Part shown: positions 17,148 through 17,699 of the stretch, one piece after another
Layout: every line of letters begins with the position of its first letter
Position numbering within the stretch: the stretch's first letter is position 1
DNA from: an uncultured Oscillospiraceae bacterium
GTDB taxonomy: Bacteria; Bacillota; Clostridia; Oscillospirales; Oscillospiraceae
NCBI GenBank assembly: GCA_947628185.1
Contig: CANQYW010000021.1
Span: 1 to 32,454 of the forward strand
Direction of reading: 5' to 3'
Length of the DNA stretch: 32,454 nucleotides
Position numbers and translations under genes: made by a program
The notes under the pieces: generated by a model
What the model was told of the DNA's origin: nothing
The model's database searches: none
What the model saw: the letters and a program-made list of their open reading frames with translations, nothing else

Positions 17148-17215
17148 GTAAAACTCCTTTAATGTTAAATAGTTTCCTTCTCAAACTCATAAATCGCGCA
17201 CAAACTACCGATGAT

Positions 17216-17244
17216 ATCATAACAAAATTTGGAGAGGCCGTCAA
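17216..17244 (-). promoter_or_regulatory. Promoter of the tldD-pmbA operon
   Basis: Minus strand: -35 TTGACG (17244-17239), 17-bp spacer, -10 TATGAT (17221-17216). The leader is about 60 nt. It separates tldD from the tandem RNA region upstream. Confidence 0.75.
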
Positions 17245-17248
17245 GTGG

Positions 17249-17290
17249 CTTATAAACAGGCTGAAGGGCCTTATAAACAGGCTGAAGGGC
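17249..17290. repeat. 21-bp tandem direct repeat (two copies)
   Basis: The unit CTTATAAACAGGCTGAAGGGC occurs at 17249-17269 and 17270-17290 without any difference. The GAAGGGC of either copy can pair with the GCCCTTC at 17302-17308, so the repeat duplicates one arm of the hairpin next to it. Confidence 0.8.
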
Positions 17291-17309
17291 CGCGATTCGC
17301 GGCCCTTCA
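17283..17309 (-). terminator. 12-bp perfect hairpin at the end of the tandem RNA region
   Basis: TGAAGGGCCGCG (17283-17294) and CGCGGCCCTTCA (17298-17309) pair perfectly around 3 nt. On the minus strand it lies 10 nt after RNA unit A. It is followed by GCCTGTTTATAAG, only a weak T stretch, so it may be a terminator or a 3' end-protecting stem. Confidence 0.5.
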
Positions 17310-17318
17310 CAGTAGTTC

Positions 17319-17417
17319 GGTGCTTTGGCAGGCGTGGCGTTCCCCTGCATCTCTCGGGTCTCCCCTGTCAGTACCATCGGCGTGTGGCTGCCACGAAATC
17401 GACCACCTCAAAGCACC
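17319..17417 (-). ncRNA. Tandem structured RNA, unit A (unknown family)
   Basis: Read on the minus strand, the unit closes with a 9-bp stem (17417-17409 with 17327-17319). Inside are P2 GTGGT/GCCAC (17406-17402 with 17388-17384), a GGG-GAGA-CCC hairpin with a GNRA loop (17365-17356) and P3 GCAGG/CCTGC (17348-17344 with 17332-17328). The P2 loop CGTGGC (17395-17390) can pair with GCCACG in the P3 loop (17338-17333), a 6-bp kissing interaction. Unit B repeats this layout with compensatory changes. The GNRA loops exist only on the minus strand, which fixes the sense. No open frame of note, no gene fused downstream and no promoter directly in front were found. Function unknown. Confidence 0.7.
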
Positions 17418-17432
17418 TACCTATCCTATGCT

Positions 17433-17534
17433 TTTGGGCTTTGGCAGGCGTACCAGTCTCCTGCGTCTCTCGGGTTGCCCCTGTCATGCCATCGGCGTGT
17501 GGTCGGTACGAAATCTACCACCTCAAAGCCCAAA
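17433..17534 (-). ncRNA. Tandem structured RNA, unit B (unknown family)
   Basis: This is the second copy, about 82% identical to unit A (17 differences over ~97 positions) and offset by 116 nt. The outer stem is 11 bp (17534-17524 with 17443-17433). P2 is GTGGT/ACCAC (17521-17517 with 17503-17499), the GNRA hairpin is GGG-GCAA-CCC (17481-17472) and P3 is GCAGG/CCTGC (17464-17460 with 17448-17444). The kissing pair is CGTACC (17510-17505) with GGTACG (17454-17449). Relative to unit A, two kissing pairs and one outer-stem pair changed on both sides with pairing kept. It begins 7 nt past the T run of the tRNA-Val terminator, so read-through from the tRNA promoter is the simplest transcription route. 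Confidence 0.7.
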
Positions 17535-17540
17535 CTTGGA

Positions 17541-17575
17541 AAAAGCAAACCCCCGGGGCCGTCGCGGCTCCGGGG
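17541..17575 (-). terminator. Terminator of tRNA-Val
   Basis: On the minus strand CCCCGG-A-GCCG / CGGC-C-CCGGGG (17575-17551) forms a stem with one mismatch, followed by GTTTGCTTTTT (to 17541). Confidence 0.8.
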
Positions 17576-17581
17576 ATCCCT

Positions 17582-17658
17582 TGGTGGACGATACAGGACT
17601 CGAACCTGTGACCCTCCGCACGTCAAGCGGATGCTCATACCAGCTGAGCTAATCGTCC
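17582..17658 (-). tRNA. tRNA-Val (anticodon GAC)
   Basis: 77 nt including an encoded CCA. Acceptor GGACGAT pairs with ATCGTCC, the D arm is GCTC...GAGC, the anticodon stem TCCGC/GCGGA encloses TTGACGT with anticodon GAC, and the T arm ACAGG-TTCGAGT-CCTGT is complete. It reads Val GTC/GTT codons. It is driven by a near-consensus promoter at 17671-17699. Confidence 0.96.
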
Positions 17659-17670
17659 GTCAGCTCGTTC

Positions 17671-17699
17671 ATTTTAGCGCAATCGGGGCGGGTTGTCAA
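17671..17699 (-). promoter_or_regulatory. Promoter of tRNA-Val
   Basis: Minus strand: perfect -35 TTGACA (17699-17694), 17-bp spacer, -10 TAAAAT (17676-17671), 12 nt before the tRNA. Confidence 0.9.

Follow-up and report, generated by a model that had tools for sequence, protein, structure and literature searches.

The window, the whole stretch of 32,454 nucleotides analysed from an uncultured Oscillospiraceae bacterium, carries two complete RNA units of about 96 nt each, arranged in tandem on the minus strand. The pair is flanked by tRNA-Val and a TldD-like gene, amid core genes such as those for pyruvate kinase, UvrA and SecA (Table 1). A sequence-only reading of this DNA had placed a tRNA-Val terminator before the pair and a separate promoter before tldD; a terminator-like hairpin is indeed present, a weak one, and a separate promoter-like site precedes the tldD-like gene downstream of the pair. 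The promoter scan of the RNA copies found no promoter of its own before either unit. Between the 12-bp hairpin behind the pair and the tldD-like gene lie two adjacent 21-nt direct repeats, 90% alike (17243-17284).

Table 1 Features of the RNA pair and its surroundings in the window.
Feature	Position	Strand	Basis or remark
Skipping-rope RNA, promoter-proximal copy	17436..17531	-	RF02924, 46.8 bits (cut-off 36.7)
Kissing strands, promoter-proximal copy	CGUACC 17510-17505, GGUACG 17454-17449	-	pairs counted in alignment
Skipping-rope RNA, distal copy	17320..17416	-	RF02924, 46.0 bits (cut-off 36.7)
Kissing strands, distal copy	CGUGGC 17395-17390, GCCACG 17338-17333	-	pairs counted in alignment
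tRNA-Val (GAC), directly upstream of the pair	17582..17658	-	ARAGORN, RF00005
tRNA-Val promoter-like site TTGACA-17-TAAAAT	17671..17699	-	11/12 matches; sole one found upstream of the pair
Weak terminator-like hairpin separating tRNA-Val from the pair	17548..17560	-	5-bp stem, T-rich tail
12-bp hairpin after the pair, possible terminator	17283..17309	-	poor T tail; fails stricter terminator rule
434-nt interval from tldD-like gene to tRNA-Val, holding the pair	17148..17581		interval comparison, same-genus genomes

Both copies match the skipping-rope family (RF02924) over the whole model and above the Rfam gathering score. The helices common to the two are P1 (8 bp in the family model; 9 and 11 bp when lengthened by eye), P2, a GGG-GNRA-CCC hairpin with the loops GAGA and GCAA, and a last 5-bp hairpin, which the sequence-only reading called P3 and which is P4 here. 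The kissing helix joins the P2 loop to the loop of the last hairpin. Identity between the copies reaches 84% and 88% in two ungapped blocks. All 8 P1 pairs are kept in both, together with full kissing helices that differ from each other. The tandem minus-strand units, their positions, the common fold and the GNRA hairpins agree with the earlier reading. It had also called the RNA unrecognised; since a confident Rfam match is what it had itself named as removing novelty, the RNA is not new, and its pseudoknot is already published.

Covariation was assessed in 34 hand-picked homologues of the long type, 33 of them from the 98 skipping-rope hits described below and one at locus G078. In this set the structure, pseudoknot included, is 98.5% paired, against 28-44% in controls in which the partners are shifted by 1-3 columns, and 18 of 27 pairs show changes on both sides. 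The kissing helix is 96.6% paired and varies on both sides in four of its six pairs. The claims of a 6-bp loop-loop pairing with compensatory changes and of selection on RNA structure are borne out by these homologues, which covary in the predicted helices, and the shared structure of the window pair is more than chance repetition. The folding-energy z values of the two copies (-2.16 and -0.91), from an energy model that omits the pseudoknot, are unremarkable when taken alone.

In the flanks of the 98 skipping-rope hits (relatives and class; 97 without L077, which at 25.4 bits lies below the Rfam cut-off and is likely a chance hit), one neighbour recurs, a same-strand gene of about 125-140 aa. 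It is sometimes the last ~125 aa of a longer gene and often ends 30 nt before the RNA. All ten neighbour proteins chosen for comparison match Pfam PBECR2 or PBECR3 above the curated cut-off. An IS200-type transposase, an idea drawn from length alone, was dropped after these matches. Within the BECR endoRNase fold, PBECR forms a phage clade whose active site has a His and a Thr/Ser; it also occurs fused to MuF and portal domains, and the passages that describe it name no RNA partner (PMC5512222). Of 41 seed proteins, 38 retain the His, and the Ser/Thr, judged by eye, is present in 13 of 13 neighbour proteins. Pfam family and kept residues together point to a putative toxic RNase. The domain corresponds to phrog_29609, where its function is given as unknown. 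PADLOC returned 0 matches for three neighbour proteins, and a sequence search of solved structures (PDB) gave chance-level matches only for the PBECR protein. A ligand-binding role, which the sequence-only reading had entertained, finds no support in a family that recurs behind PBECR nuclease genes; a riboswitch or metabolic-gene leader is likewise unsupported, the recurrent neighbour being the upstream PBECR gene. This partner was invisible to that reading because it is absent from the window.

The RNA-nuclease linkage is reciprocal. Searching 391 class genomes with both Pfam models yields 63 distinct loci in 50 genomes. Among the 55 PBECR2/3 loci in frames of up to 540 aa, 44 have a same-strand skipping-rope RNA within 250 nt, and the copy at G078, missed by that 250-nt search, raises the class total to 45 of 55. 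Above the Pfam cut-offs, the RNA lies behind 44 of 48 loci in short frames; in frames of more than 540 aa it is found at 0 of 8. From the RNA side, a PBECR match sits just upstream of 45 of the 76 skipping-rope copies in these genomes. The four above-cut-off short-frame loci where a recognised RNA is missing are G147, G324, G434:C206 and G215. Scanning the first three with cmscan gave no skipping-rope; the PBECR3 matches of G147 and G324 are strong, and G324 shows a decayed skipping-rope by eye.

Other samples show the same arrangement. In the 80 relatives, where PF18810 only was searched and not PF18812, the RNA is present at 9 of 9 PBECR2 loci. In 319 phylum genomes all 14 scorable PBECR3 loci with short frames have it, in convergent orientation at two, and 0 of 5 PBECR loci with long frames do. 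This count excludes G770:113520, whose frame reaches the contig end, treats a G763 gene that is broken into two pieces as a single locus, and includes G679:C8 and G492 under the Pfam cut-off (the RNA of G492 falls 0.2 bits under the Rfam cut-off) as well as G105 and G166, which also belong to the class sample. A protein-only search in named genomes, in which 80 of 125 protein relatives were kept, places the RNA behind the protein match in 80 of 80 loci, 32-67 nt away; the weakest RNA model scores are 24.5, 27.1 and 30.0 bits, at least 12 of these loci seem to repeat loci of the genome sample, and some are inside the alignment behind model R1. On viral contigs, the DNA continues behind the gene for 29 of 30 PBECR relatives, and each of these 29 has the RNA above the Rfam cut-off, 5-51 nt behind the stop in 28. 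In L306 it lies 2,268 nt behind the stop, past a stretch with a 627-aa ORF taken by eye for a transposase. Four viral-contig PBECR frames of 549-876 aa have the RNA. Phage records gave seven matches, five of which were examined; the RNA is present in all four with DNA behind the gene (three Streptococcus suis phages and a faecal phage contig), the fifth record ending at the gene.

In the Streptococcus suis phages (L217, L218 and L219) the PBECR gene stands near the end of the phage, between the lysin gene and the skipping-rope RNA; two of the three records annotate it as 'spbA protein'. At L231, L254, L255, L270, L276 and L226, more than one skipping-rope RNA surrounds a single PBECR gene, before and behind it, as if modules or antidotes accumulate. 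On viral contig L311 a GP20-b RNA (RF03003, 4748-4808) stands shortly behind the skipping-rope.

The skipping-rope RNA has the signals of a gene of its own. A promoter with at most one mismatch precedes 34 of the 54 linked copies (0.12 expected from shuffles); three of the 54, one in G010 and two in G354, come second or third after a nuclease that already has a copy. The same holds for 10 of 38 toxin-less copies (0.09 expected). The -10 box most often ends 17 nt before the RNA, and terminators follow 72 of 97 copies (7.9 expected). In G731 the RNA and the PBECR3 gene are on opposite strands and converge; TTGACA and TATAAT boxes precede the RNA, and a second convergent pair of this kind occurs in the same genome.

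The RNA also occurs alone. No PBECR is present within 900 nt upstream of 38 of the 97 copies, and only pieces of one at 5. In G019, a stretch with 75% identity to the G005 module starts at the skipping-rope -35 box and contains the RNA; the PBECR gene of G005 lies outside it, and the homology resumes 2.8 kb further on in G005. Because the homology spans the -35 box and the RNA and not the nuclease gene, G019 holds a promoter-RNA unit free of its nuclease. Toxin-less copies in two different genomes (L117 and L143) follow a similar small protein of 91-92 aa, and two from one bacterial family (L104 and L125) share the same 192-aa frame upstream.

The two kissing strands match in 79 of the 80 protein-found loci; with the last arms swapped, 32.4 match on average and at most 42. 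PBECR and RNA distances correlate with an r of 0.81, which 0 of 2000 permutations equals and which linkage alone could yield. Within genomes, 0 of 14 same-genome pairs among the 35 long-type copies have a common kissing loop, where 2.9 are expected (P 0.029). This is a weak but suggestive indication that the kissing loops of a genome form a non-redundant set. Among short-type copies, a kissing loop is repeated in two genomes, G350 and G354.

The window pair is likely an insertion in the window's lineage, because the interval from the tldD-like gene to the tRNA measures 434 nt here against 74-112 nt in the 4 of 17 other same-genus tRNA-Val loci where the two adjoin, and because none of those 17 loci gives a good match to model R1 (L353 scores 19.6 bits). 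Among the 18 tRNA-Val loci compared, the window's included, the pair is found in one lineage only. A likely sort of source is the module of G010, of the same genus, in which PBECR2 is followed by two skipping-rope RNAs, each with its own promoter and carrying the same two kissing loops as the window pair. As a DNA query, the pair matched no phage record and one plasmid at chance level. The window's genome, 83.28% complete, has no PBECR2/3 match and four skipping-rope copies with four different kissing loops. The two further copies (L001 1501-1587 on G000:C3 and L002 88-182 on G000:C25) also have no upstream PBECR gene and represent two further kissing-loop types. Since no promoter other than that of tRNA-Val was found upstream, and none belonging to the copies themselves, read-through from it followed by processing is the likeliest route of expression. 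The sequence-only reading had offered processing out of the tRNA-Val transcript, which is possibly right; its view of a structure-selected, trans-acting RNA of minus sense stands, the trans action as a probability. The term unrecognised is wrong, and ligand binding is unsupported.

In the literature searched, the skipping-rope pseudoknot is named in the Rfam 14 paper, in the legend to Figure 3A (PMC7779021), and the RNA is counted among the non-coding RNAs of phage fragments in a 2021 paper (PMC8501573). Where two other papers mention it, it is used merely as training data or listed as an sRNA (PMC11507696, PMC7682815). No function of the family and no link to PBECR was found in that literature, which covers few subscription papers, and an earlier report is possible. 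The RNA family and its pseudoknot are already known; the partnership with PBECR and the orphan array are new as far as the search reached. The window copies resemble other members in the whole-model match and the kissing pseudoknot and differ in being tandem, devoid of promoters of their own and apart from any nuclease gene.

The most probable explanation, held with good though incomplete confidence, is that the skipping-rope RNA is the antidote of the PBECR2 and PBECR3 nucleases and that the window pair is an orphan array of it. Behind the nuclease gene, a structured RNA would be transcribed on its own and would neutralise the enzyme, most likely through binding, as RNA antitoxins do in systems of the type III kind. 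Type III toxin-antitoxin systems (ToxIN, CptIN, TenpIN and AbiF/RCd22) likewise set a predicted RNase or toxin beside a structured pseudoknot RNA and are phage-linked, and AbiF/RCd22 is an RNA antitoxin discovered from an Rfam motif (PMC12373285). The likeness in toxin linkage holds for the skipping-rope family and is absent at the window locus. The nuclease differs, being PBECR rather than ToxN or AbiF. So does the order: a type III operon has the RNA array first, then an attenuating terminator and the toxin (PMC12373285), whereas here the nuclease gene comes first, with an own-promoter RNA behind it or convergent to it, and the RNA unit, of about 80-100 nt, is mostly single.

For the window pair itself, inserted behind tRNA-Val and probably read through from the tRNA promoter, the choice between standing immunity against incoming PBECR effectors and a remnant is near even. 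That the pair is decaying, with the RNA an antidote elsewhere and these two copies unexpressed or unneeded, is a serious contender placed somewhat under an even chance. It agrees with the missing promoters, the poor terminator, the lack of a PBECR2/3 match in the genome and the confinement to one lineage; intact P1 stems, full and different kissing helices and the retention of four RNAs with four different kissing loops argue against it.

Three further readings concern the family as a whole. The PBECR protein could require the RNA as a cofactor, guide or substrate, and linkage by itself cannot separate help from inhibition. This is improbable, because a cofactor would vanish together with its enzyme, whereas the RNA alone is common (38/97) and the nuclease alone in short frames, above cut-off, is rare (4/48). 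Still less probable is a type I-like regulation by antisense pairing to the nuclease mRNA, which the adjacency of the genes and the convergent G731 copies would suit. What is conserved is structure, including the kissing helix, and on the toxin mRNA a cognate RNA has no pairing advantage over a foreign one (mean rank 0.49 for the 5' region and 0.51 for the gene), which makes the protein the likelier target. The last reading makes the RNA a part of the nuclease mRNA, as a 3' untranslated or stability element. It is suggested by the mostly same-strand position shortly behind the protein match and is already largely refuted by the promoter between gene and RNA, the convergent copies and the many copies with no gene, which leave it scarcely credible.

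The antidote reading takes a particular form in the many phages whose nuclease is fused to the C-terminal end of a MuF-type head protein. Phage_Mu_F proteins end in a PBECR2 domain in L135, L139 and L096, as does a minor capsid protein in L137. Upstream of MuF-PBECR2, L135 and L139 have an SPP1-type portal gene; in L135 the skipping-rope RNA is followed by a scaffold gene. Of 29 viral contigs, 18 have frames of the size of such fusions (439-557 aa). Toxin-bearing MuF proteins have been described as a family of polymorphic toxins of phages, and small proteins have been proposed as their immunity factors (PMC5576092). The arrangement here is like that of the MuF polymorphic toxins of temperate phages, with MuF-PBECR2 beside portal and scaffold genes and a small element directly behind, and differs in that the element is an RNA instead of a small protein. 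In such phages the skipping-rope RNA would be the immunity factor for a particle-delivered effector.

A resemblance to tRNA suggests how the RNA might act. In the Rfam structure lines, skipping-rope runs as P1 of 8 bp, 2 nt, P2 of 5 bp, 1 nt, P3, 4 nt, a last arm of 5 bp and 0 nt to P1; tRNA runs as 7 bp, 2 nt, 4 bp, 1 nt, 5 bp, 4-5 nt, 5 bp and 0 nt. The two share the order of arms, the junction lengths (2, 1, 4 and 0 nt), a 5-bp last arm abutting P1 and a contact between D-like and T-like loops, formed in skipping-rope by the kissing loops. They differ in the irregular third arm and a kissing helix of up to 6 bp. In a rough parse, successful for 85 of 92 sequences, the last arm has 5 bp in 73 and no spacer to P1 in 79, and a 2-nt spacer follows an 8-bp P1 in only 56. 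Homology to tRNA is rejected in favour of analogy: the tRNA model gives no match in 17300-17550 at E up to 10, and ARAGORN calls only the two real tRNAs in the window.

Colicins D and E5 are examples of BECR enzymes that cut tRNA or rRNA. It is because the BECR enzymes include cutters of tRNA and rRNA (PMC5512222) that a decoy is attractive. By its branching plan and elbow contact, skipping-rope might be a tRNA-shaped decoy that traps BECR nucleases, carried by temperate phages as RNA immunity for a MuF-delivered nuclease; hosts might then collect toxin-less copies with different kissing loops, such as the window pair, as a repertoire against incoming phage effectors. This extension is doubtful: the tRNA-like plan was noticed after the fact and has no chance estimate, and the decoy is what we infer from it.

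The antidote reading gives a testable function to an Rfam family that has none in the literature searched, and proposes an antidote for a family of predicted phage nucleases that is widespread. If it is right, an RNA can confer immunity to a polymorphic toxin delivered by the particle, which for MuF toxins is otherwise ascribed to small proteins (PMC5576092). Strings of esaG copies are known as orphan immunity genes (PMC9484751, PMC12247911). Like these, the toxin-less skipping-rope copies are non-identical copies of a putative immunity factor; they differ in being RNA instead of protein and in that their protection is putative. If the reading holds, they would be the RNA counterpart of orphan immunity genes, and skipping-rope matches would flag conflict between phage and host.
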